A stretch of DNA of 64,000 nucleotides from Bacillota bacterium (GTDB lineage: Bacteria; Bacillota; Clostridia; Caldicoprobacterales; Xylanivirgaceae). Below are positions 10,958 through 34,217 of this stretch, piece after piece; position 1 is the stretch's first letter; each line of letters opens with the position of its first letter. A model generated the notes under the pieces. It searched no databases. It saw nothing but the letters and a program-made list of their open reading frames with translations, and had not been told where the DNA came from. The stretch lies in the NCBI GenBank assembly GCA_023621995.1, contig JAMOAB010000029.1:1-64000 (forward strand), read 5' to 3'. The translations under genes were made by a program, and so were the position numbers.

Positions 10958-11821
10958 GTGGGGATAAAGCTTGAAATCAAATATGTAATGATACTCATAC
11001 TCACAATTATAGTTATAGGGCCTAAACTTGCTATGGCAGGCGGATTTGAGGTCATTGGTAATAGCGCAGGACTTGTAGTAGAGCCAGAGGATACTAGGTT
11101 ATTTGATATGGGCAATATGAACCCAGGAGATGAAGTAACGTCAAGTATTTTAGTTAAAAACAGATATATAAAACCTTTTAATCTATATCTTAGAGTTGAA
11201 AGGATAGGAGAGGCACCTAAGACCGATGCACCAGATCTATATGACAAGCTCATAATGACTATCAAACAAGGGACAGACCAACTCTACTCTGGTTCTATCA
11301 TTCCTTCCCTTCCCATTGAAATTGGAAGTTTTACTCCTGGAGATGTAGCTAATTTGGATATAAGTGTGTCTCTACCAGGTAGTGATACAAGCAATGAGTA
11401 TCAAGGGATGCAAGTAGATACAGAATGGATATTTATAGCACAGCTACATGATGGCGTAGATCCGGACGAACCTCCCAGTGACCCTATTCATTCTAAGCCA
11501 CCGGCAGGCCCTGAAGAACCAGCGAAACCTGAAAAGCCAGGTGATGATGACGATGATTTCATAGATATAGATGATGAAGAGATTCCTGCAGGCCCTATAG
11601 TGGAAGATAATTTGGAGGATAAGAGGGAAGAAGGGCACGACAAAGAAGGAGATAATAGTCAAAAGATAGAAGACGTTGGAATTTCAGATAATGAAGAGGA
11701 CCCTAAGGGTAAAATAACCATGCCAAAGACAGGCGAATCGATACCGTATGCACTATATAGTGTAGGTGTTGGACTTATAATATTGGGCCTTATAATAGGT
11801 AGAGATAGAAAATTGAAATAG
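10958..11821 (+). CDS. Cell-wall-anchored surface protein, LPXTG-like (MPKTG) sorting signal
   Basis: GTG start; acidic/Pro-rich spacer and C-terminal MPKTGESIPYALYSVGVGLIILGLIIGRDRKLK. Confidence 0.8.
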   Translation: MGIKLEIKYVMILILTIIVIGPKLAMAGGFEVIGNSAGLVVEPEDTRLFDMGNMNPGDEVTSSILVKNRYIKPFNLYLRVERIGEAPKTDAPDLYDKLIMTIKQGTDQLYSGSIIPSLPIEIGSFTPGDVANLDISVSLPGSDTSNEYQGMQVDTEWIFIAQLHDGVDPDEPPSDPIHSKPPAGPEEPAKPEKPGDDDDDFIDIDDEEIPAGPIVEDNLEDKREEGHDKEGDNSQKIEDVGISDNEEDPKGKITMPKTGESIPYALYSVGVGLIILGLIIGRDRKLK

Positions 11822-11830
11822 GTATATAGA

Positions 11831-11868
11831 TTAAGCCAGATACGAAAGAAGGTATCTGGCTTAATTTC
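11831..11868 (+). terminator. Rho-independent terminator
   Basis: Perfect stem ttaagccagatac-gaaagaag-gtatctggcttaa. Confidence 0.8.
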
Positions 11869-11887
11869 TATATGCACTGGCGGGGTA

Positions 11888-12547
11888 GTGATGATGAAAA
11901 AGTGTATAAGTTGGTTGCTCATAATAATAGGGATATGTATGGTCTTATATCCTAAAGTTCAAGATTTGTATAATAGAAGGCAACAGAAGCAAATAATGGA
12001 GGCGTGGCAGTTAGACCTATTGATAATAGGAGATGTAGATGGTGGGGATACACTATTAGAAGATGACGTTATTCAAAGGTATGCAACGGAAGAGGAAGGA
12101 AATAGCCTAGATAAAAATGATATTGGCCCTACTTTTAACAAGGAATATAATATGGAAGCAGAAGGCGTTCTTATGATTGACAAAATAGATCTTAAGATTC
12201 CCATATTGACAGATGCTACAAAGGAGAATTTAGCCATATCGGTAGCCCGGATAACAAATACAGGCAAGGCTGGTGAGATAGGTAACTGCTGTATAGCAGG
12301 ACACCGGAGTAGAAGATATGGTAAACATTTTAATAGGCTAGGTGAACTGGAGGAGGGAGATATAGTAAAAATAGATAATGGTGAACATATATTTAGCTAT
12401 GTGATATTTGAAAAGAAGATAGTAAAGCCCACCGATATATGGATACTAGAGGGAGACGGCAGTAGAAAACTTGTGACCCTTATAACCTGTGATTATTCAA
12501 CAAGGCCACCTAGCAGACTTATTGTCAGGGGCGAGCTGGTAGAGTAA
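11888..12547 (+). CDS. Sortase, class D-like
   Basis: EGVLMIDKIDLKIPILTDATKENLAISVARI...CCIAGHRS...KLVTLITCDYSTRPPSRLIVRGEL: sortase His and TLxTC motifs. Confidence 0.9.
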   Translation: MMMKKCISWLLIIIGICMVLYPKVQDLYNRRQQKQIMEAWQLDLLIIGDVDGGDTLLEDDVIQRYATEEEGNSLDKNDIGPTFNKEYNMEAEGVLMIDKIDLKIPILTDATKENLAISVARITNTGKAGEIGNCCIAGHRSRRYGKHFNRLGELEEGDIVKIDNGEHIFSYVIFEKKIVKPTDIWILEGDGSRKLVTLITCDYSTRPPSRLIVRGELVE

Positions 12548-12653
12548 AACAGTTAGACTTTTTATTAAGCAAAAGGTATAATATAAACTAATCATAAAAA
12601 ATTGATTTCAATATATAGTAATTTTTTAGGAATATAAAAGGGGGAGCAAGTTA

Positions 12654-13529
12654 ATGGATGATTATAAAGTAGGATTGTCGGCAGCCCGGATTGCCATAGT
12701 GGTAAACATAGTTCTATGTGCATTTAAGATATTGGCTGGTATTATAGGCAAGAGTAATGCCATGCTGGCCGATGGGGTACATACCCTTTCGGATATTTTG
12801 GCTACATCCGTTGCAGCCATTGGTCTTAAGATAGCAGCTAAGGATGCCGACGATGAACATCAATATGGTCATGAGAGATACGAACCACTGTTTGCAAAGG
12901 TTGTAAGCACTATTTTGATAATAACTGGAGTCTTTATAGGCTTCGAAGGAATTAAGGCGCTTATACAGGGGGATATTGAAACGCCAGGAAAGATAGCCCT
13001 CTATGCTGCAATAATATCTATTGTTGTCAAGGAAGGACTATACTGGAACACTATTAGGGCAGCTAGGAAAATAAAGAGCATATCCTTAGAAGCCGATGCA
13101 TGGCACCACAGATCAGATGCACTATCATCTATAGGTACATTTGCAGGAATACTAGGTGCGAGGCTGGGCGTGGGAGTGCTGGACCCTATAGCAGGTGTAG
13201 TAGTCAGTCTGTTGATAATAAAAGTAGGGGTAGAATTTTGGATTAAGGCAAGTAAGGGGCTAGTAGATACAGCAGCACCTTCTAAGACGGTGGATGAGAT
13301 AGAGAGACTCACTATGGCCGTTGAAGGAGTGAAGGGAATAAATACTTTAAAGACAAGGATGTTTGGCAGCAGATTATATGTAGACATAGATATTGCAGTT
13401 GACGGTGATATTACAGTACATGAAGGCCATTGTATAGCACAGGAAGTCCATGATAGAATTGAGAAAAACATAAAGGACATAAAGCATTGTATGGTCCATG
13501 TAGATCCATATAAAAAAGATCTAGATTGA
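12654..13529 (+). CDS. Cation diffusion facilitator (CDF) transporter
   Basis: ARIAIVVNIVLCAFKILAGIIGKSNAMLADGVHTLSDILAT..DDEHQYGHERYEPL..DAWHHRSDALSS. Confidence 0.93.
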   Translation: MDDYKVGLSAARIAIVVNIVLCAFKILAGIIGKSNAMLADGVHTLSDILATSVAAIGLKIAAKDADDEHQYGHERYEPLFAKVVSTILIITGVFIGFEGIKALIQGDIETPGKIALYAAIISIVVKEGLYWNTIRAARKIKSISLEADAWHHRSDALSSIGTFAGILGARLGVGVLDPIAGVVVSLLIIKVGVEFWIKASKGLVDTAAPSKTVDEIERLTMAVEGVKGINTLKTRMFGSRLYVDIDIAVDGDITVHEGHCIAQEVHDRIEKNIKDIKHCMVHVDPYKKDLD

Positions 13530-13554
13530 TTAAGATAGGGGTGGATGACTATAT

Positions 13555-14712
13555 ATGAAGATACTTATAGCACCTGATTCCTTCAAAGGCTCGTTGTCGT
13601 CTAAGGAGATAATAGGTATAGTAGAAGAGACAATCTATAGGCATTTTAAAGATGCCAATGTCATTGGTATACCCATTGCCGATGGTGGCGAAGGTACTGT
13701 GGAAGCCCTAGTTACTGCATGCGCCGGCACCTATGCTACAGCAGAGGTATTAGATCCACTTTGTCGCCCTATAACTGCTACCTACGGAATAATAGATGAT
13801 GGTAAGGTAGCTGTAATTGAGATGGCACAGGCTTCAGGCATAATGCTTCTTGAGGAAAGTGATCTAGATCCTCTAAATACTACTACATATGGCACAGGAC
13901 AGCTTATAAAAGCTGCACTGGATAGGGGTATAAGGGATATAATAATCGGTATAGGAGGAAGCGCCACAAATGATGGAGGGATGGGCGCAGCTAGAGCTGT
14001 TGGAGTGAGATTTCTCGACAAACTAGGCAGGGATGTGGGGCATGGAGGTGGGAACCTCAGGGATATAGCCACGATAGATACAAGTGGTCTCGATTCAAGG
14101 CTTAAAGAGTGCTCCATAAGGGTCATATGTGACGTGAAAAATCTCCTTACAGGGCCAAATGGAGCAACGTATATATATGGACGTCAAAAAGGAGCAGGAG
14201 ATAGGGAACTTTCTATTCTAGAAGAGGGTATGAAAAATTATGAAGCCCATCTGCAGGAGCTTACAGGAAAAGACATAGGGGGTAGGGAGGGCGCCGGCGC
14301 AGCTGGAGGTCTAGGCGCGGCACTTATTGCGTTTTTTGGTGCGACCCTCTCTCCAGGCATAGAGACAATATTAGATATTATAGAATTTGATAAGCTATTA
14401 GATGGGGTAGATTTGGTGATAACGGGAGAGGGAAATATCGATGGCCAGTCCATATATGGTAAGGTACCCGTTGGTATAGGAAAGCGCTGCATGGAGAGGG
14501 GCATACCTGTACTTGCCATAGTTGGAGGAATGGGTGATGGTGCCCAAAGGGTATACGATTTTGGTATCGATAGTATAATGGTAACGGTTAATAAGAGTAT
14601 GTGTATCGATGAAGCAATAGACAGGGCCGAAGAACTACTATCTGATGGAATAGATAGGGCACTTAGAATGATAAAGATAGGTCTTAGCATGGATAGAGCA
14701 AGCTATAGTTGA
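13555..14712 (+). CDS. Glycerate kinase (GarK/GlxK family)
   Basis: MKILIAPDSFKGSLSSKEI...PIADGGEGTVEALV...GIGGSATNDGGMGAARAVGVRF. Confidence 0.95.
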   Translation: MKILIAPDSFKGSLSSKEIIGIVEETIYRHFKDANVIGIPIADGGEGTVEALVTACAGTYATAEVLDPLCRPITATYGIIDDGKVAVIEMAQASGIMLLEESDLDPLNTTTYGTGQLIKAALDRGIRDIIIGIGGSATNDGGMGAARAVGVRFLDKLGRDVGHGGGNLRDIATIDTSGLDSRLKECSIRVICDVKNLLTGPNGATYIYGRQKGAGDRELSILEEGMKNYEAHLQELTGKDIGGREGAGAAGGLGAALIAFFGATLSPGIETILDIIEFDKLLDGVDLVITGEGNIDGQSIYGKVPVGIGKRCMERGIPVLAIVGGMGDGAQRVYDFGIDSIMVTVNKSMCIDEAIDRAEELLSDGIDRALRMIKIGLSMDRASYS

Positions 14713-23417: not shown

Positions 23418-25424
23418 ATGAAGAAGAAACTTGTATGTATCTTGATAGCCATCATGTTTGTCAGTATTTTATCTGTTCCCTTTGAGGCATCTGCCCAGGG
23501 AAAGATAGATGTTTCAGCTGACACTAAAGGTTCCAAAATGGAATACTCTATAAAAAACAAGACAGAAAGCGATATAGATGAGATTCAGATAGATGAAATA
23601 TTAAAGGACAAGGGTGGCAGTGTGGTAGATTCATCCTCTATAAGTGGAGGGCGGATAGCTGCTGGTGACAAGGCAAAATTGGTTGGAAAACCATATAATA
23701 GTTTTATGGGGGATTTTAATCTAGAGTATAATGTAAGATGTAAGATGTCAGGATCTAATGTGCTAGAGGAGATTGCCTCAGGTAGTAAAAAGCTTAATCT
23801 ATCTGATGTTAGGATAAGTGTCTCCTATAGTGCCCAGCCGGCAGATAGAGTACAGAAGGGTAGTTCTGTCACATATACAGCTGAACTGACATCAAAATCT
23901 AATATACCAATCTATAATATAGTAGTTATTGATAGTGTCCATGGTGAGTTAGGTGTAATCGATGTACTAGAGCCTGAACAGAAGAAGACAGTATCTAAGA
24001 ATTTTAATCTATCACAATCGGTTGAGAGCCATGTAATCTTAAAATTTGATGATCCCTTTGGGGTAAGGGGAGGGATAGAACAGCCCCTATATAATACAAA
24101 GATAGGCGTAAATGTAACCGAAGAAGTGCCAGAGCCGAAGATTAGCATAGATGTAAAACCAAATAAAACTGCTATAAAAGGGTCTACAGATGTGGCTTTT
24201 AATATAGATGTCCAGAATACTGGCAATGTGGCACTTCATAATATAGAGCTTACAGATTGGGATGGTAAACTTATTTCACGAAATGTTAAGCTTCAGCCGG
24301 GAGACAGTTATTCGGTTCAATTTACAGGCAAGGTAGAGCCAGAGAAGAGCTATGAGATAAGCTGTATAGCGTCGGCAGAGGGTACAGATAAAGGGGCAAA
24401 GGCGTCATATACGGTAAAATTATCTAAATTGGATCCATCAGTGGAGATTGATAGGAGAATAGTTCCCGATTCATATAAAATAGGTGATACTATAAAGTTA
24501 GAATATATTGTGCGCAATACTGGTAATGTTGGACTTAAGGATATAGTATTAGAGGAGTCTGAATGGAAGGAAAAATCTATAGGGAAGCTAGATAGCTTAG
24601 ATCCAGGTGAGGAAAAGGTAATATCTATAAAGATAGATTTGACGGCTCCCATAGTCAGTAAAGTGATACTTAAAGGATATGATAAAGTAGCAGGTGAAGA
24701 GTATAAATATGAAGCCCCCTCCCTTGCCATAGGGGGGAAGGAAGGAGAAGCTTCTAAACTAGATATAAGATTAAAGGCTGATCCTGAGCGGCTAGATAAA
24801 CCAGGTTCTATAATACTAGAGTGTAGGCTATCAAATAAAGGCAATGGAAGTCTAAAAAATGTGGAGGTCTCAATAGAGGAGAGGGGTATTGTACTGGGCA
24901 GTCTCTTAGAGCTACCTGCAGGCAGTGAAGAGACAATGAAGAGTATGCCTATAGATGTAGAGGAGACCGAGACTTTTAGAGTAGTAGTAAAAGGTATTAA
25001 TAGTGCAGGGAATAAGGTAGAGTTTACAAGTAGCCCCCTTACTGTAGAGGTAGGTGGACAGAAAAAGCAGGATGATACAGGAGATGGTAGAAGAGCTATT
25101 TTAAAGACAGTGATGGTGGTCATAACTCTACTTATCATATTTGTAGCAGGTACTTTGATATATGTAGTGAAGAATCCAAAGGCCTATGGAAAAGGAGACT
25201 CTATTGGTAAACCTAAGGGGGAACCCAGTGACAAATCGGATGGAGGTCCTATTGAGAAACCTGGCCAAGAGCCTATTGATCAACCAGGTGAAGACCTTAT
25301 TGATCAACTAGACAGAGAGACAATCGGCAAATATGACGAAGAATCCATCGATAAATCTAATGTGGAGGACGGACAAGAGGATGGACAAAAAATTCTTAGG
25401 AGGAGATGGAAAAACAAACGTTGA
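23418..25424 (+). CDS. Secreted/membrane protein with repeated CARDB/DUF11-like beta domains
   Basis: Signal peptide; repeated NTGNVALHNIELTDWDG / NTGNVGLKDIVLEESEW / NKGNGSLKNVEVSIEE modules; C-terminal TM and low-complexity PIEKPGQEPIDQPGEDLIDQ tail. Confidence 0.75.
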   Translation: MKKKLVCILIAIMFVSILSVPFEASAQGKIDVSADTKGSKMEYSIKNKTESDIDEIQIDEILKDKGGSVVDSSSISGGRIAAGDKAKLVGKPYNSFMGDFNLEYNVRCKMSGSNVLEEIASGSKKLNLSDVRISVSYSAQPADRVQKGSSVTYTAELTSKSNIPIYNIVVIDSVHGELGVIDVLEPEQKKTVSKNFNLSQSVESHVILKFDDPFGVRGGIEQPLYNTKIGVNVTEEVPEPKISIDVKPNKTAIKGSTDVAFNIDVQNTGNVALHNIELTDWDGKLISRNVKLQPGDSYSVQFTGKVEPEKSYEISCIASAEGTDKGAKASYTVKLSKLDPSVEIDRRIVPDSYKIGDTIKLEYIVRNTGNVGLKDIVLEESEWKEKSIGKLDSLDPGEEKVISIKIDLTAPIVSKVILKGYDKVAGEEYKYEAPSLAIGGKEGEASKLDIRLKADPERLDKPGSIILECRLSNKGNGSLKNVEVSIEERGIVLGSLLELPAGSEETMKSMPIDVEETETFRVVVKGINSAGNKVEFTSSPLTVEVGGQKKQDDTGDGRRAILKTVMVVITLLIIFVAGTLIYVVKNPKAYGKGDSIGKPKGEPSDKSDGGPIEKPGQEPIDQPGEDLIDQLDRETIGKYDEESIDKSNVEDGQEDGQKILRRRWKNKR

Positions 25425-25481
25425 TTCTAACTATTATCAATATTGGAAATCAAAGTTATTAAAATATTGGGAGTGGTTATT

Positions 25482-26654
25482 ATGCTCGATCTATCTAAAC
25501 TGAGTAGACAGATATATAATATGACATTTGAATTTGGTCAACAGCTAGAAGAACTTCAGGATAAATGCCATGAGGCATATAGGTTATTTGAAGGGTTTGA
25601 TAGGGATCCTGAAGAATGGCTAAGTAAGATAGATTCTCATGATAGCCATTTTTTCGTAGCCTTTCCCGAAGAATCCATATCCACAGTTCATAGTCTTCCA
25701 GCTTCTGTACTTCCCTATTCGATTTTTGCCACCGATGGTTCACAAATCGAATTAGACACCCATGAAGTGGCTCTATGCTACGTGATAAACATAGGTCTAG
25801 TTGCCATACACTATGATGGAAAAACTGATCCCTATCTAGATAGCATACCTAAGCTATTTTATAGAGATGATGAAATATATGAATATTCAGGTGGCGAAAA
25901 GACCCTAATATCGGGGACAAAACTTTCAGAGGTAAGAAGTTCCATGGAGGCAGAGAAGCTTTGCAAACTAATATTGGAGGAGAGGCAAGATGGTGTACCA
26001 TCAGTAGGGCTTGTGGACGGTACTCTGGTGTCATGGGACAGAGCGGCATCTGCCAAGAAAGATATAGGAGCTTTCACAGCCCCATTATTTGAAGAGGCGT
26101 TTGATGTAAGTAAGAAGTTTAGAACTCCCATAGGTGGCTATATATCGGGTTCACGTACATCCCTTGTGATAAACACACTTAGGGCTAAGCTCTGTAATAG
26201 ACCTGTTATGGACTGTTCTAAGTGTACAAGGGACGAGCCATGTAGGAGAATAGAGGGGATTAGGGATACCATTCTATTTAAGGATCTGTTAAATAAAGGA
26301 CAGCGTTCCACTGTCTTCTATGGAGGTATAAATACTTTAGATAGGGAAGACTGGCCGGAGCATAGAATTGGATTTTTTTATGTAAATACAGGTGAGGAAA
26401 TAGCACGAATAGAGGCACCTGACTATGTACTTGAAAATGATGGACTTTTAGATCTCCTTCATTTTGTGGCATATGATCAAGCAAATAAGGGTATGGGATA
26501 TCCTATATCACTTCAAGAAGCCCATCATCTAGCAGTTGTTAGGGGACCGGAGCGAGAGACGTTCTATAGGCTTGTGGCAAACACCTTGATTGATGCAGGG
26601 CTACCTTCTAGGGTGACTAATAAGAAACTTCGGAAGGTTACAAGGTTATTTTAA
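25482..26654 (+). CDS. nurA: NurA-domain nuclease
   Basis: FATDGSQIELD and VGLVDGTLVSWD acidic motifs typical of NurA; first gene of a group leading to HerA/Mre11/Rad50. Confidence 0.85.
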   Translation: MLDLSKLSRQIYNMTFEFGQQLEELQDKCHEAYRLFEGFDRDPEEWLSKIDSHDSHFFVAFPEESISTVHSLPASVLPYSIFATDGSQIELDTHEVALCYVINIGLVAIHYDGKTDPYLDSIPKLFYRDDEIYEYSGGEKTLISGTKLSEVRSSMEAEKLCKLILEERQDGVPSVGLVDGTLVSWDRAASAKKDIGAFTAPLFEEAFDVSKKFRTPIGGYISGSRTSLVINTLRAKLCNRPVMDCSKCTRDEPCRRIEGIRDTILFKDLLNKGQRSTVFYGGINTLDREDWPEHRIGFFYVNTGEEIARIEAPDYVLENDGLLDLLHFVAYDQANKGMGYPISLQEAHHLAVVRGPERETFYRLVANTLIDAGLPSRVTNKKLRKVTRLF

Positions 26655-26809
26655 TGTTGGTATTGAAAAGGTTTTTTGATAGATATTAGGTTATAGGGGT
26701 AACATGGCATCTATAATGGTATAGGTTTTGTACTATTTAGGTGTCATATTGGGGATTAGAGATAATCTAGGTTATAAGTTAGAGATCTATATAAGGGAGG
26801 ACGGGTACT

Positions 26810-27379
26810 GTGATAGGGGAGATAATAGAGAGTAGAACATCAGAGTTTATAGTAGAGACTGTAGAGTATGATTTTAAGCTGCCGTATGGTTCATTTATCC
26901 GGACAGTAGATGATAATCGGATCATATATGGGATAGTAGCAGGTATGTCAACCACTAGTATAGATAATAATGTTCGTGCTAAGGCATTTTTTAAGTCGTT
27001 AGATGAGCTAAAATTAGAGCAGCCCCAGATCTTTTCCTTGTTGAGGACGGAAGCCTACTGCATAGTACTTGGCCATAGTGAAGGGGGAATATTTAAGCCT
27101 TATTACCCTCCCAACCATCCAACACTCCATCTTCAAGTGGAGTTTGCCGATGATAAGGAGATAATAGAGGTAACAGAGAGCTTCACATATCTTTTAAAGA
27201 CTATAAGCTGCAAGGATGCCGATGGTGAGGAACTCACAGCTGCAGCACTTAGGAAGGCAGCTAGCCTCAGGGAGAATAGGAGACAATATCTGGTAGAAGC
27301 AGGTCGGGAACTTTTCAAGATATTAGATTATGACACACAGAAACTAAAGAGCATAATGGAGAGGGTTGATGTCATATGA
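26810..27379 (+). CDS. HAS-barrel-like protein, HerA-associated
   Basis: MIGEIIESRTSEFIVETVEYDFKLPYGSFIRTVDDNRIIYGIVAGMST resembles a HAS-barrel; ATGA overlap with herA; GTG start. Confidence 0.6.
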   Translation: MIGEIIESRTSEFIVETVEYDFKLPYGSFIRTVDDNRIIYGIVAGMSTTSIDNNVRAKAFFKSLDELKLEQPQIFSLLRTEAYCIVLGHSEGGIFKPYYPPNHPTLHLQVEFADDKEIIEVTESFTYLLKTISCKDADGEELTAAALRKAASLRENRRQYLVEAGRELFKILDYDTQKLKSIMERVDVI

Positions 27380-29040
27380 AGGGAACAATTCTTAGAGGGT
27401 CGCTTTCAGGAGGATTTGATGTACGCCTTGCCATAGGTGAGAACATAGAGGAGATAAAGGTAGGTACGTTCTGTGTAGTAGAGGGAAAGAGGTACGATTT
27501 CTTTTCCATGGTAGTAGACGAAGAGATAGAGGCTACCAATCCTCAAGTATTATATGACACATTCAGTGATAACCCCCTCATAGATGAAATTGTAATGGGT
27601 ACAGGAGTTATAGAAAAGGTAAAGATTCAGCCCATGATAATGATAGATAAACTTGAGGGTGGCGTGAGGCCTGTAAAGAGTATACCATCCCATATGTCGC
27701 CTGTGAGGGCAGCCATTGACCAAGATGTGTTCACCATATTTGGAGAGCCGGATGAAGACCATTTCCATGTGGGTTCACCACTTGACATGGAGGATATACC
27801 ACTTTGTGTAAATCTAGATAGGTTTATAGAGAGATCTAACGGTATATTTGGTAAATCGGGGACAGGTAAGACCTTTTATACGCGTATAATGCTATGTGGC
27901 ATGATAAAGAGTCAAAAGGCAAATGTACTTGTATTTGACGTACACAATGAATATGGCTGGAAGGGAAGTAGCGAAGATATAGGTGCAGAGGTAAAGGGAC
28001 TAAAGCAGCTGTTTGGATCACAAGTTGCCATATTTACATTGGATGAGAAGTCTAGCAAAAATAGGGGAGTTAGACCAGATTTTGTAGTGGAGATTCCCTA
28101 TAGGGCAATAGAGCCAGGGGATATTGCCCTTGTATGGGAAGAACTTAATTTGAATCCCACTGCCCTTGAATCCATATATATACTGCAGAGGTACTTGGGT
28201 TCGGATTGGCTACTTACATTTTTGAAGATGGATGTACAGGACATAAAGGACATGACAGATGAGGTAAATGCAAGTCAAGCGTCACTCCAAGCCCTACAGA
28301 GGAAGTTAATGGCATTGGAGCGACTTCCCTTTATAAAGGAAAACCCTGCCGACGATGCAGTGAAACGTATAATGGAATATCTAGACAACGGTATAAATGT
28401 AGTGCTAGAATTTGGACGATATCAGAACAATATGCTTGCATATATGTTGGTTGCCAATATACTTACCCGAAGGATACATGAGAGGTATGTCACGAGGAGT
28501 GAGCGGGCGCAGGCAGGACAAGGAGAGATGAACAAACCTCTTGTAATAGTTATAGAGGAGGCTCATAAATTTTTAAGTCCTGAGCTATCTAATCAGACTA
28601 TATTTGGCATGATTGCAAGGGAGATGAGGAAGAACAATGTGACACTTCTAGTGGTGGATCAAAGGCCTTCAGGGATAGATCCAGAGGTTCAATCACAGCT
28701 AGGAACCAAGATAATAGCACTTTTGACTGATGAGAGGGATATAGAGGCGGCCTTAAGTGGAAGTAGTAATGCCCGTATGCTCAGGAATGTATTGGCAAGT
28801 CTTGAGACAAAGAGGCAAGCCATAATATTGGGACATGCGGTGCCCATGCCTGTAGTGATACGCACCCGTGAATATGATTTCAAATTTTATGAAGATATGA
28901 CAGATGGATTAATCGATGATGACGAGGACTTTACTGGGAAGAGATTTTTAGATGATATGGCGGAATATCTAGAGGACAATGGAGATGTACAGGTAGATGT
29001 GAGTGATATAGATGGAATAGAGGAGTTGTTTAAGGGATGA
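27376..29040 (+). CDS. herA: HerA-family ATPase/helicase (DUF87)
   Basis: SNGIFGKSGTGKTFYTRIML (Walker A), PLVIVIEEAHKFL (Walker B), ARGMRKNN-like IAREMRKNNVTLLVVDQRPSGIDPEVQSQLGTKI. Confidence 0.92.
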   Translation: MKGTILRGSLSGGFDVRLAIGENIEEIKVGTFCVVEGKRYDFFSMVVDEEIEATNPQVLYDTFSDNPLIDEIVMGTGVIEKVKIQPMIMIDKLEGGVRPVKSIPSHMSPVRAAIDQDVFTIFGEPDEDHFHVGSPLDMEDIPLCVNLDRFIERSNGIFGKSGTGKTFYTRIMLCGMIKSQKANVLVFDVHNEYGWKGSSEDIGAEVKGLKQLFGSQVAIFTLDEKSSKNRGVRPDFVVEIPYRAIEPGDIALVWEELNLNPTALESIYILQRYLGSDWLLTFLKMDVQDIKDMTDEVNASQASLQALQRKLMALERLPFIKENPADDAVKRIMEYLDNGINVVLEFGRYQNNMLAYMLVANILTRRIHERYVTRSERAQAGQGEMNKPLVIVIEEAHKFLSPELSNQTIFGMIAREMRKNNVTLLVVDQRPSGIDPEVQSQLGTKIIALLTDERDIEAALSGSSNARMLRNVLASLETKRQAIILGHAVPMPVVIRTREYDFKFYEDMTDGLIDDDEDFTGKRFLDDMAEYLEDNGDVQVDVSDIDGIEELFKG

Positions 29041-30260
29041 ATGAAAGAATAAGACTCATACATACGGGAGATCTCCATATAGGAGTACAAAACTATGGGC
29101 GAATAGATAGTAAGACAGGGATTCACAGTCGGCTGAGGGATTTTTTAGAGACCTTCGATAGCCTTGTAGACTATGCCATAGACGATAATGTAGACGGCGT
29201 GCTAATATGTGGTGATGCATTTAAGAACAGGGAGCCAACTGTCACAGAGCAGCGGGAGTTTGCCAAGCGTATAAAGAGGCTATCTGATAGAGGTATAAAT
29301 GTATATATAATAGTTGGGAATCATGATCTTCACAATGCGCCACATAAGGCAACATCGGTTGAGATATATGATATTGTAGATATGCCAGGTGTATATGTGA
29401 GGCGAAAGCCATCAATTGATATTTTAGACACAAAAAAAGGGCCTATGCAGATTGTGGCCCTTCCCTATGTATCAGCGAGTATGATAAATGCAGAGGGTAG
29501 CACCATAGAAGAACTATCACTAGATATGAGGCAAAAACTTTGTACTATAGTGGATGGTCTTGCAAAGCGGTTGTACAATGATCTTCCCACAGTGTTCATG
29601 TCCCACTATTCAGTTATAGGGGCAGTGCCAGGGTCGGAGAAGTCTATAATGTTGGGGCGGGAGATAACTCTACCCCTATCTTGTTTTGCAAGACAACAGT
29701 TTGACTATGTAGCCTTAGGCCACATACACAAACATCAGGTAATGGGGGGGGACCCTCCAGTTGTATACTGTGGCAGTATGGATAGGGTAGACTTTAGTGA
29801 AGAAGACGACAAAAAGGGATTTGTAATGGTAGAGCTCAGTAAGGGGGATGTCCGTTATGAGTTTATTGAGCTTCCTACCAGGCCCTTTAAGACGATATAT
29901 GTAGATGCTACAGAAGGCAATGCTTTCCAGTTAGTGAAGGATGCAATCGAGCCCCTATCCATAGAGGATGCTATTGTAAAGCTTAAAGTCAAGATAAAAG
30001 CTACCCAGTTAGCTGATCTCAGAGAGGGCGAAGTATATAAACTTTTAAGGAGTAGAGCCTTCTATGTTGCCGGTATAGAGAAGGATATAATATCCGACAA
30101 GTCACATCTCAGACATCCAGGTATTACTGAACGGATGGATATAGGAGAAGCAGTAGCCGAATATATAGATAAAAAGGAAGAATACGCGGACATTAAAGAG
30201 GAACTTCTAGAGTTAAATGATAAGCTCTTACATAAGCTTAGGGAGGGAGATACTGTATGA
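29037..30260 (+). CDS. Mre11/SbcD-family DNA repair exonuclease
   Basis: LIHTGDLHIG, GDAFKNREPT, IVGNHDLHN, VFMSHYSV, VALGHIHKHQ phosphodiesterase motifs; ATGA overlaps on both sides. Confidence 0.95.
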   Translation: MNERIRLIHTGDLHIGVQNYGRIDSKTGIHSRLRDFLETFDSLVDYAIDDNVDGVLICGDAFKNREPTVTEQREFAKRIKRLSDRGINVYIIVGNHDLHNAPHKATSVEIYDIVDMPGVYVRRKPSIDILDTKKGPMQIVALPYVSASMINAEGSTIEELSLDMRQKLCTIVDGLAKRLYNDLPTVFMSHYSVIGAVPGSEKSIMLGREITLPLSCFARQQFDYVALGHIHKHQVMGGDPPVVYCGSMDRVDFSEEDDKKGFVMVELSKGDVRYEFIELPTRPFKTIYVDATEGNAFQLVKDAIEPLSIEDAIVKLKVKIKATQLADLREGEVYKLLRSRAFYVAGIEKDIISDKSHLRHPGITERMDIGEAVAEYIDKKEEYADIKEELLELNDKLLHKLREGDTV

Positions 30261-32818
30261 AACCTGTGGCCCTTTATATGAAAAATTTCAAATCATATGG
30301 AGAGGATACGCCCGTATTTGACTTCAATGCTTTTGATATAGTACTGTTGACAGGAGAAAACGGTAATGGAAAGTCGTCCATAGCTGATGCAATAGCATGG
30401 TGTATATGGGGACAGTGTAAGGGCATGACTGGACGAGGAGGAATAGATGATCTTGTCAGGTCTGGTGCCGAGGATATGGAGGTTTCATTTACCTTTGAAG
30501 AAGATGGCAATCAATACAAGATAATAAGAAAACGGGATAAGAGACGGGGCCAATCATCTCTAGATTTATTTATAGAGGAGGGTGGGGTATTTACTCCCAT
30601 AAGCGGAAATAGGATAGATGAGACCCAATCCAAGATACAACAGCTTATAAAATTAGACTATGATACGTATCTGTGTACGGCGTATCTAAGCCAAGGAAAA
30701 GCAGATATGTTTGCCATAAAAAAACCAAATGAGCGAAAAGAGGTACTATCGGAGATATTGAACCTATCTAGTTATGATAGGTTGGCAGAGCTTGCCAAGG
30801 AGGAAAGAGGCGGGCTACAGAGTGAAGCTGAAATACTAAAGAGGGAAGTGTATGGACTTGAGGCAAGAGTAGGTGACGAAGATAAGGTCTCTAAAGCGAG
30901 AGATATGGTAGAAGAAGAACTTAGAACTAGACAGAAAAAGGAACAGGCTATTGGCGAAAGGCTAGATGCATATTATAAGACATATAGGGAAAAGAGCAGT
31001 CTTATAAAGAGTTTAGAGGGATATAGGGGAAATCTAGAAAGGGTAAAGGAGGAGCTTCAACAATTAAAGAAGGAAGAGGCGCAACTCCTTACCCGCATAA
31101 AATCCTATAGAGAGGTTCTTAAAAGGGAAGAGGAGATAGAGATCTCTTATAAAAGAGCTAGGGAACTGTCTGAGAGGGAGAATCTGTATAGGGAAAAGCT
31201 ACAAGAGAGGACAACCCTTATAAGACAGCTCGATATCATAGACAGCACCATAGATAAAAAGAGACAGGAGCTTGAGTATAATATCAAACTTTTACAGCAG
31301 GAAATAGAATCTGAGAAGAGAAAACTATATAGGGAAGATAAGGTAGCTAAAGAGGTAAAAAGTTTTAGTGAAGCCCTAAAAAAAATGGTGGATCTAGAGA
31401 AGAGACTATACCTTATGGAGCGTGATGTAAAGAAAAACATTGAGGAGATAGCAGCCCTAAGGGCTAGAGAGGGGAGCTTGTTAGAGAGCTTAGATGATCT
31501 GAGGAAACGATATAAGGATCTGTCAGGAGCTAAGTCAAATTGTCCGACATGTTATACTCCCCTCACTGATAGTTCAAAAGCCAATGTACTAAAGACCATG
31601 GCTGAGAATGGAAAGAATATACAAGAGGATCTAGAAAATACGCAAAACTCCATAAGAAAGCTAGATAAGGAGAGAAAGGGATTAGAGAGGGAAATAGATA
31701 AGGCAAAGACCGTATTAAAAAATAAAGGTAAGGTAGAGAGCCATCTAGCCATTATGCAACGGGAACTAGAAGAGGCAGAGGAAGCCAAAAAGAGAATTGA
31801 GGCTCTGATGGTAAAGCTTATACCCTTGAAAGAAAATATGGCAGATAAGACATATGCATCTGAACTGCTGGCAGATAAGAGAAAGCTTCAAGAAGAGATG
31901 AGTAAGCTTGATTATGACGAAGACATCCATAGAAAAATTAGAGAAGAACTGAAGGAGTTAGCACATATAGGTGAGTCCTACCAAGAGGTTCAACTGGCAA
32001 AGGTTAGGCTCTCTGCAGACGAGGAGAGTATCAATAGAATTAGGGCACTTATAGAGGCTAGAGAGAGCTATGGTATCGAACTTACAACACTCATCGGCCA
32101 GCTTGAAAAGGCTACAGAGGGTATAGAGACTATAAAAAAGGACATATACGGGCTAGAGATGGAAAAAAAGAAGATGGGAGACGAGATAAGGCAGCTCCAG
32201 TCTAAAAAAGGTGCCCTAGATGAGAGACTTAAACAGATAGAAGATGCAAAGCGAGAGATAAAAGAGAAGAAAAATGCTATTTTAGAACTGAATAGGGAGA
32301 TAGAACTCTATAGTACTCTCATAGAGATATATGGTAAGAGGGGGATACAGGCAGCCATAATAGAAAATGCCATACCTGAATTGCAAGATGAGACCAATCG
32401 TATACTGGCTAAGATCACAGATGGGAGATTGACGGTGGAATTCTTGACACAGCGGGACACGAAGGCAGGCAATACTGTAGAGACATTAGATATAAAGATA
32501 TCAGATGGACTGGATACTAGAAAGTATGAAACCTATTCCGGTGGCGAAGAATTTCGTATAAATTTTGCCATACGTATAGCCCTATCTAAGATACTAGCAC
32601 GGCGGGCAGGGGCCACAGTGCGTATGTTAGTCCTAGATGAAGGTTTTGGAACTCTAGACGAGAAGGGCCGGGAGCGACTAGCCCAAGTTATAAATGCCAT
32701 ATCTGATGAGTTTGAAAAGATAATAGTGATAACCCATATACAGGATCTGAAAGATTACTTTTCCAATCAGATAGAGGTATATATGACACCCAAGGGCTCC
32801 ATGTTTAAACCACTTTGA
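30257..32818 (+). CDS. Rad50/SbcC-family SMC-like ATPase
   Basis: TGENGNGKSSIADAIAWCIWG (Walker A), long coiled coil with CPTC zinc hook at about 31541-31552, YSGGEEFRINFAIRIALS signature, MLVLDEGFGTLD Walker B. Confidence 0.96.
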   Translation: MKPVALYMKNFKSYGEDTPVFDFNAFDIVLLTGENGNGKSSIADAIAWCIWGQCKGMTGRGGIDDLVRSGAEDMEVSFTFEEDGNQYKIIRKRDKRRGQSSLDLFIEEGGVFTPISGNRIDETQSKIQQLIKLDYDTYLCTAYLSQGKADMFAIKKPNERKEVLSEILNLSSYDRLAELAKEERGGLQSEAEILKREVYGLEARVGDEDKVSKARDMVEEELRTRQKKEQAIGERLDAYYKTYREKSSLIKSLEGYRGNLERVKEELQQLKKEEAQLLTRIKSYREVLKREEEIEISYKRARELSERENLYREKLQERTTLIRQLDIIDSTIDKKRQELEYNIKLLQQEIESEKRKLYREDKVAKEVKSFSEALKKMVDLEKRLYLMERDVKKNIEEIAALRAREGSLLESLDDLRKRYKDLSGAKSNCPTCYTPLTDSSKANVLKTMAENGKNIQEDLENTQNSIRKLDKERKGLEREIDKAKTVLKNKGKVESHLAIMQRELEEAEEAKKRIEALMVKLIPLKENMADKTYASELLADKRKLQEEMSKLDYDEDIHRKIREELKELAHIGESYQEVQLAKVRLSADEESINRIRALIEARESYGIELTTLIGQLEKATEGIETIKKDIYGLEMEKKKMGDEIRQLQSKKGALDERLKQIEDAKREIKEKKNAILELNREIELYSTLIEIYGKRGIQAAIIENAIPELQDETNRILAKITDGRLTVEFLTQRDTKAGNTVETLDIKISDGLDTRKYETYSGGEEFRINFAIRIALSKILARRAGATVRMLVLDEGFGTLDEKGRERLAQVINAISDEFEKIIVITHIQDLKDYFSNQIEVYMTPKGSMFKPL

Positions 32819-32872: not shown

Positions 32873-33427
32873 ATGACGGGGGAGACTCAGCTCATAGAAA
32901 AAGCCAAGCAGGGAGATGTTGATGCCTTTGAGGAGCTTATATCAACCTATCAGAGGATGATATATAATTATTGTTACAGAATGTCTGGCAACTTGCATGA
33001 TGCAGAGGATTTGACCCAGGAAGTCTTTATAAAAGTGTATAAGAGTTTAAGAAAGTTTAAAGGGAAGAGTCAATTTTCAACATGGATATATAGAATAGCA
33101 CATAATACCTGTGTAGATAGACATAGGAAGAAAAGACCTACTGATGACAATATGATATTTTTAGATAATGAAAAAGAATATAGAACGTTAATATCAGATA
33201 GCTACATACCAGAGGAAGAACTCTTATCAAAGGAAAAGCAGGATATAATACAAAAGTGTATTGACTCTTTAAAGCCAGAATATAGATCGGTTATAATACT
33301 TAGGGATATACAAAATTATAGTTACAAAGAGATTGCCACAATTCTTGATATACCTCTAGGAACGGTGAAGTCCTATATAAGTAGAGGACGCTCAGCCCTT
33401 AGGGAATCTCTGAGGTCAAGGATATGA
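32873..33427 (+). CDS. ECF-type RNA polymerase sigma factor
   Basis: FEELISTYQRMIYNYCYRMSGNLHDAEDLTQEVFIKVYKSLRKFKGKSQFSTWIYRIAHNTCVDRHRKK...YSYKEIATILDIPLGTVKSYISRGRSALRE. Confidence 0.96.
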   Translation: MTGETQLIEKAKQGDVDAFEELISTYQRMIYNYCYRMSGNLHDAEDLTQEVFIKVYKSLRKFKGKSQFSTWIYRIAHNTCVDRHRKKRPTDDNMIFLDNEKEYRTLISDSYIPEEELLSKEKQDIIQKCIDSLKPEYRSVIILRDIQNYSYKEIATILDIPLGTVKSYISRGRSALRESLRSRI

Positions 33428-33431
33428 GGGG

Positions 33432-34217
33432 GTGTATGTATTGAAGTGCCAAGATATGTATAAACTTATTAACCTCTATATAGATAATATGCTAGATGAG
33501 GACGGTCAAAAAGAATTAGAGGCACATATTGAAGAATGTGAAAAGTGCAGAACCGATTTTAAAGAGCTGGAGGCTACAAAAAAATTGCTAGGGAGCCTAC
33601 CAGATGAGGACACACCTCCCGGTTTTGAAAAGCGACTTCATAATCGACTTGTAGAGGTAAAGCTAGAGTCTTCAGGTAATAATAAGAAATATACATCTAG
33701 GGGGATTTTAGCAATAGCGACTGCTCTAGTAGTTTTTGTAGTTCTTAAAATAGGCCTCTATAACGCACCAATGGAGATGTCAGATGATATGGTGGCTGAA
33801 ATGGAAGTGGCAGAGGATAAAGGGAAAGATATGGATACTAAAGAGGAATTATATACACAGGGTGACGGCTATGGAGCCGAGGTTATAGCCACTGGGGAAG
33901 ATGAAGTGGATATAGAAGCTAGAGATATGGATGAGACCATTAAAGAAGACAAAAAGGGAAGTGAAGAGGGACTTCTTACCGAGGATGTAGCTGTAAAGGT
34001 ACAAGATGTATGTGCTAATACTCAAGCAATAGAAAGAATCGCTTTAATGCATGATATAGAAGTAGTAGAAATTGAGGATGATAGCATAATAGTTGAAGTT
34101 GACACTTTAGAGAAGCGAAGAACTCTCTATGAAGAGTTATCTAAACTTGGGAAAGTAGAAAACTTAGGGAGGGATCAACATAGTGGCAAAGTAAAGATAA
34201 CTATTGTTTCGGAATAA
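33432..34217 (+). CDS. Anti-sigma factor, zinc-finger (zf-HC2) type
   Basis: YIDNMLDEDGQKELEAHIEECEKCRTDFKELEATK, then one TM segment; directly follows the sigma gene. Confidence 0.85.
   Translation: MYVLKCQDMYKLINLYIDNMLDEDGQKELEAHIEECEKCRTDFKELEATKKLLGSLPDEDTPPGFEKRLHNRLVEVKLESSGNNKKYTSRGILAIATALVVFVVLKIGLYNAPMEMSDDMVAEMEVAEDKGKDMDTKEELYTQGDGYGAEVIATGEDEVDIEARDMDETIKEDKKGSEEGLLTEDVAVKVQDVCANTQAIERIALMHDIEVVEIEDDSIIVEVDTLEKRRTLYEELSKLGKVENLGRDQHSGKVKITIVSE

Follow-up and report, generated by a model that had tools for sequence, protein, structure and literature searches.

A five-gene DNA-end-processing operon in a clostridial genome

The window analysed here is a stretch of 64,000 nucleotides (contig JAMOAB010000029.1, positions 1 to 64,000) from a member of the Clostridia (order Caldicoprobacterales, family Xylanivirgaceae; assembly GCA_023621995.1). 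Between positions 25482 and 32818 it carries five consecutive open reading frames (ORFs) on the forward strand, in the order nurA, a gene for a stand-alone HAS-barrel protein, herA, mre11 (sbcD) and rad50 (sbcC). An earlier note on this DNA, made from the sequence alone, had proposed these identities and an operon; both proved correct in Pfam and NCBIfam searches and from the recurrence of the gene order, and every motif that it had claimed for NurA, HerA, Mre11 and Rad50 was located in the sequence. The same order recurs in distant genomes, and the arrangement is therefore not due to chance. By analogy, neighbourhood and distribution, we consider DNA-end resection the probable function of this bacterial cluster.

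The first gene, nurA (25482-26654), encodes a NurA-family nuclease that matches the whole Pfam NurA model (1.8e-25, positions 2-254 of 254). Its ATG start at 25482 is conserved among homologues, and an in-frame TTG lies at 25443. A gap of 155 bp separates it from the HAS-barrel gene (26810-27379), which begins with GTG and encodes 189 amino acids (aa). From the HAS-barrel gene to rad50, each gene shares an ATGA with the next one (at 27376, 29037 and 30257), as had been noted before. HerA (27376-29040) is a double-stranded DNA translocase ATPase of the hexameric type in the FtsK-HerA superfamily, with a central DUF87 domain (Pfam 2.9e-31), a Walker A motif (GKSGTGKT) at residue 159 and a Walker B motif (VIVIEE) at 390. 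The Mre11/SbcD nuclease (29037-30260) contains a Metallophos domain (Pfam 1.4e-14), and the Rad50/SbcC ATPase (30257-32818) is a short form of 853 aa with AAA_23 (1.9e-20) and SbcC Walker B (1.4e-9) matches. The model of the Rad50 hook stayed under its cut-off (0.023), yet a zinc-hook CPTC occurs at residue 429. Around the operon, promoter and terminator matches did not exceed chance level.

The host genome is a draft (3.08 Mb in 175 contigs, 98.5% complete, 4% contamination), a caveat that applies to the absences reported for it below. Its closest named relative is Firmicutes bacterium UBA3920, with 90% HerA identity. The apparent break in nurA of UBA3920 is caused by a scaffold gap of Ns.

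A NurA subfamily with four invariant cysteines

We aligned the window NurA with 25 homologues that diverge down to about 28% identity. Four cysteines that the earlier note had overlooked, C238, C245, C248 and C254, are invariant in all 25, and in NurA of the operon type their spacing is approximately C-x6/7-C-x2-C-x(5-29)-C. D85, E156, D179, Y340, H348 and K381 are likewise invariant, the first three being the predicted catalytic acidic residues. The cysteine motif was not seen in other NurA proteins of the class, nor in two plasmid-encoded NurA proteins described below. Most likely the cysteines hold a structural zinc ion or an iron-sulphur cluster, two options that sequence cannot distinguish. 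Neither phmmer nor profile searches found a NurA match in the Protein Data Bank (PDB), so that no solved NurA structure is detectable by sequence, and an AlphaFold2 (AF2) model of NurA made from two sequences only was unusable (predicted local distance difference test, pLDDT, 37.5).

A HAS-barrel protein additional to HerA's own barrel

In the loci inspected, a gene for a stand-alone HAS-barrel protein sits between nurA and herA. The window protein matches PF09378 above the cut-off (5.1e-7, 30.1 bits against 25.2), as do 14 of 17 homologues. We rejected the possibility that it represents HerA's own HAS barrel, detached into a gene of its own, since Pfam finds the domain in both proteins: orthologous HerAs carry an N-terminal HAS barrel (30.4 bits in L069 and 27.4 bits in L125, against the same cut-off), and the window HerA, whose N-terminus falls below that cut-off, is an orthologue of these. 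Each system thus contains two HAS-barrel proteins, the stand-alone one being additional to HerA's own, a point that had escaped the earlier note.

Profile comparison of the stand-alone protein with HerA N-termini gave no clear relation. Its AF2 model was weak (pLDDT 58.3), and a Foldseek search with that model returned nothing significant, HerA entries appearing among the noise only. NurA is known to dock on the HAS domain of HerA (PMC9960219, PMC8708640), and a role at the NurA-HerA interface is therefore the best guess for the stand-alone protein. By this analogy it is most likely a third component of the NurA-HerA core, acting as a subunit or adaptor at the interface.

The operon is conserved across Bacillota and its core occurs in Gemmatimonadota

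Among 30 genomes of the host's order, NurA (PF09376) was found in 11, distributed over the families as 3 of 4 (f1), 7 of 7 (f2), 0 of 13 (f3) and 1 of 6, a weak match (f4). The f1 and f2 loci that were read have these five genes in unchanged order, and in those inspected rad50 is followed by ORFs resembling the extracytoplasmic function (ECF) sigma factor (SigW-like) and anti-sigma genes that lie directly downstream of rad50 in the window (32873-34217). This conserved synteny indicates that the operon is an inherited chromosomal feature of the two families. Immediately upstream of nurA, the window encodes a secreted protein of 668 aa (23418-25424) that has a membrane anchor at its C-terminus and contains DUF7507 and CARDB repeats.

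A HerA profile search of 398 genomes of the phylum found HerA of the operon type in 16. The loci read from this search (L069-L076) all contain nurA, the HAS-barrel gene, herA, mre11 and rad50 in that order, and overall the five-gene order was kept in 16/16 related Bacillota loci inspected, from eight families; in one of them (L028) nurA and the HAS-barrel gene flank a further ORF. The operon directly follows recA and recX in family f132 (L070, L076) and precedes ybaB and recR in family f150 (L074, L075); these neighbours were named from a reading of the sequence alone. Genome size and gene content hint, as no more than a guess, that the lineages found by this search are thermophilic Bacillota.

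The core of the operon also occurs in a second phylum. After nurA, the HAS-barrel gene and herA were found on a contig of a Gemmatimonadaceae metagenome-assembled genome, operon-type HerA was detected in 40 of 64 Gemmatimonadota genomes. Nine of the ten loci inspected carry the full trio, and the tenth, on a cut contig, has the HAS-barrel gene and herA. No mre11-rad50 lay beside the trio in these ten loci, within the stretch read. In the HerA tree the operon type forms one clade of Bacillota and Gemmatimonadota sequences (support 100/100), with the Gemmatimonadota proteins nested among those of Bacillota next to L069 (94/91), in a tree whose root is not established. Transfer between phyla would be the simplest reading of this pattern.

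Other arrangements of nurA and herA were also encountered. Several other clostridial families (L034, L036-L042) have a two-gene nurA-herA, here called type II, which often adjoins rsmI and in L036 and L041 tmk/holB; that of genome G037 (L034:1-6400) has neighbours whose sequences resemble CRISPR type I cas genes. There is also a third NurA, which matches weakly and has a partner gene of 582-592 aa (L043:7565-10449 and L044:7698-10636); it is found in genomes with canonical AddB and is perhaps a mobile or defence form. Two plasmids carry larger sets. A Natrinema zhouii plasmid (NZ_CP084885.1, L089) has nurA, a hypothetical gene of 221 aa, herA, mre11 and rad50, the hypothetical protein being a possible distant analogue of the HAS-barrel protein with no significant match. 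An 898-kb Pontibacillus plasmid (NZ_CP062975.1, L093) has nurA-herA-mre11-rad50 near gyrA and DNA-metabolism genes.

NurA is found mostly where canonical AddB is missing

AddAB is the usual bacterial enzyme for trimming DNA breaks. We scored canonical AddB as a match to TIGR02773 with E < 1e-50 and a clear NurA as a match with E < 1e-10. In the sample of the class, canonical AddB was missing from 10 of 11 genera with NurA and from 5 of 116 without it; in 59 further genomes of the phylum, again counted by genus, the figures were 11/13 and 11/36. Pooled over Bacillota, canonical AddB was missing from 21 of 24 NurA-positive genera versus 16 of 152 NurA-negative ones (Fisher p = 2e-14); the tallies were compiled by hand per genus, combine both NurA types and count separately genera that are not fully independent. 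A further four genera, which had nothing more than a weak NurA-like match and all have canonical AddB, were left out. Within the order, canonical AddB is absent from 9/10 genomes with the operon and present in 19/19 genomes of f3 and f4. One genome (G196) has both the operon and canonical AddB, and one of f3 (G204) has both forms of AddB; contamination is possible in either.

A search of the host genome for addAB and a second sbcCD revealed a divergent AddAB-like pair and no second SbcCD, the SbcC model matching only the operon locus and SMC. The pair lies on the reverse strand of contig C58 of the host genome, G000 (L027:9168-11585 and 11539-14502). The AddB-like protein (987 aa) has an ADDB_N domain (6.9e-23) and a PD-(D/E)XK nuclease domain (PDDEXK_1, 2.3e-23), and scores far below the AddB equivalog cut-off (143.7 versus 903.7 bits). 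The AddA-like protein (805 aa) contains UvrD helicase domains only and is missing the C-terminal nuclease domain; AddA of a relative (G145) aligns with it over residues 1-803 and continues to 1090 aa with PDDEXK_1. The nuclease part of the AddA model had no other match elsewhere in the host. What follows the 805-aa gene reads as a broken nitroreductase gene. The nuclease-less AddA fits, without proving, a situation in which HerA-NurA would carry the load. The earlier suggestion that the operon replaces AddAB thus agrees with the strong negative association in the clade, but not simply with the host, which retains a divergent AddB and an AddA without its nuclease.

The operon Mre11 groups apart from the ordinary SbcD of the order

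In another explanation, Mre11-Rad50 would be an ordinary SbcCD, NurA-HerA a separate module that merely shares its operon, and resection the work of the divergent AddAB-like pair together with RecJ. The presence of the AddAB-like pair and the absence of adjoining mre11-rad50 from the Gemmatimonadota trio are consistent with this, and the best NCBIfam model for the operon Mre11 is indeed bacterial SbcD (TIGR00619), at 135.3 bits over a cut-off of 77.65. For Rad50 the best NCBIfam model is SbcC (TIGR00618; 5.4e-76), at 256.4 bits below a cut-off of 478.5. The closest PDB matches are Thermotoga maritima Mre11 (3qg5, 4.7e-28) and Methanocaldococcus jannaschii Rad50 (5f3w, 1.4e-25). However, in a tree of 30 sequences the operon Mre11 proteins lie on one side of a branch of moderate support (72/83), whereas ordinary SbcD proteins from the host's order cluster with those of other Clostridia and other bacteria (100/99). 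The idea that this is simply the ordinary SbcCD of the clade, raised earlier as a way in which the interpretation could fail, is therefore not borne out. The five genes moreover stand together in all Bacillota loci inspected, and the host AddA is without its nuclease domain. We regard independent modules as a rather unlikely explanation, though the strongest of the competing ones.

An archaeal gene set of uncertain origin

The earlier note had described a complete archaeal-like resection system. This holds for the gene content, which is typical of hyperthermophilic archaea (PMC2288612), but not beyond it, as Mre11 scores best with SbcD and HerA falls in the Bacillota-Gemmatimonadota clade. A horizontal transfer that brought the entire operon from archaea to the clostridial lineage could draw on that content, on the nurA-hypothetical-herA trio with mre11-rad50 of the haloarchaeal Natrinema plasmid, and on the archaeal origin that one study infers for Thermus HerA (PMC5448004). 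Against such an import, the HerA clade nests Gemmatimonadota within Bacillota, Natrinema HerA is only 28% identical and its NurA does not have the four cysteines, and the arrangement of the genes is shared across the host's order; we find this scenario highly improbable. Archaeal sequences in the Mre11 and HerA trees are few and on long branches, so "archaeal-style" is best taken as a description of the gene set, an archaeal origin being neither shown nor excluded by the trees.

A proposed function in DNA-end resection

We propose that the operon products form an end-resection machine. Its gene content, conserved order and invariant residues, the association with a lack of canonical AddB and the recA or recR neighbourhood in two lineages are observed here; the existence of a complex, its metal site, the strand polarity of resection and the takeover from AddAB are what we infer. 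Mre11-Rad50 would act first, recognising and opening the broken DNA end. The HerA ring, a hexamer with a NurA dimer docked on its HAS-barrel face, would next drive the duplex into that dimer. NurA would degrade the DNA and leave a 3' tail for RecA, so that, by analogy, the products would carry out ATP-dependent resection of the 5' strand. In lineages with the operon, most of the task of canonical AddAB would fall to this machine. In Sulfolobus, Mre11 is known to bind HerA (PMC8708640, PMC9960219, PMC2288612), and resection by HerA/NurA is reported to be essential in Sulfolobus islandicus (PMC4351679).

Several points weigh against this proposal. A 2026 study of the Thermococcus kodakarensis complex doubts a role in resection and suggests antiviral DNA degradation (PMC12977600), and deletions of nurA or herA in Deinococcus radiodurans and Thermus had only modest effects or improved resistance, as cited in PMC9960219. 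The AddB-like protein of the host retains a nuclease domain, so that other resection enzymes may suffice. The AddB association was corrected for kinship only by counting genera and pools two NurA types, and attempts at a structural model of NurA or of the complex gave nothing usable.

The antiviral action proposed for archaeal HerA-NurA would also suit an operon that destroys invading DNA, in the manner of SIR2-HerA or DUF4297-HerA, and the earlier note had offered defence as one option. HerA does match several PADLOC HerA models (best 4.7e-30), Rad50 matches LmuB models, and nurA-herA-mre11-rad50 sets are plasmid-borne in Natrinema and Pontibacillus. Yet these PADLOC matches are at superfamily level, neither NurA nor the HAS-barrel protein finds a PADLOC model at 0.01, and no known effector partner (SIR2, DUF4297 or others) is present in the operon. 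Its setting is a conserved, housekeeping one: within the order an ECF sigma/anti-sigma pair shares its synteny, and in other lineages recA-recX or recR adjoins it. Its distribution tracks the lack of canonical AddB. Defence is thus unsupported here, and we judge it improbable.

Returning to resection, the enzymes are known ones, joined by an extra component and a NurA subfamily for which we found no description. The literature searched, a scope outside which the key 2004 papers fall, contains no mention of the cysteine motif, the separate HAS-barrel gene or the AddB association; Firmicutes NurA and HerA are mentioned, without analysis, in one review (PMC8708640). A bolder reading, which we hold to be less likely than not, is a distinct bacterial class of end-resection systems with a three-component NurA (Fe-S/Zn)/HAS-barrel/HerA core. 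In such a class the second HAS-barrel protein would be indispensable to the complex and would adapt or gate the docking of the nuclease, and the system would have taken the place of canonical AddAB more than once in Bacillota and crossed from one phylum to another.

The cellular role of HerA-NurA is disputed (PMC12977600 versus the resection model), and outside Deinococcus and Thermus hardly any bacterial version has been studied. The version described here is widespread among bacteria, in some lineages lies next to recA or recR, and mostly accompanies a lack of canonical AddAB, which provides an independent argument for a role in recombination. It also offers bacteria in which the role of HerA-NurA can be tested, and it points to a conserved but uncharacterised component and to a four-cysteine site still in need of an explanation, both of which lend themselves to direct tests.

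Comparison with known systems

Like the herA-nurA-mre11-rad50 clusters of Sulfolobus and Pyrococcus, the operon unites the same four enzyme families, whose catalytic and ATPase motifs are of the same types. It differs in belonging to a bacterial clade, in its stand-alone HAS-barrel gene and in a NurA that has four cysteines and matches no solved NurA by sequence.

Among bacteria, Oceanithermus profundus has nurA-hepA-sbcD-sbcC (PMC5448004), in which nurA and herA are likewise linked to sbcD and sbcC. That arrangement, compared here by its description only, is from one Thermales genus, with a HAS-barrel gene or cysteine motif unreported in the part of the paper available. The NurA-HerA of D. 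radiodurans (PMC9960219, PMC8708640) is also bacterial and its host is without RecBCD/AddAB, but it is a two-gene unit, not clustered with mre11-rad50 homologues (PMC8708640), and its HAS barrel lies inside HerA. The type II nurA-herA of Clostridia (for example L041, L040 and L037) shares both proteins and occurs mostly where canonical AddB is missing, whereas its NurA is shorter (about 330 aa) and without the four cysteines, and its HerA is longer (about 612 aa) and belongs to a separate clade.

Finally, the operon resembles bacterial SbcCD in that Mre11 exceeds the SbcD cut-off and Rad50 finds its best NCBIfam match in SbcC. It is set apart by its short Rad50, by the separate position of its Mre11 and by an operon shared with NurA-HerA.

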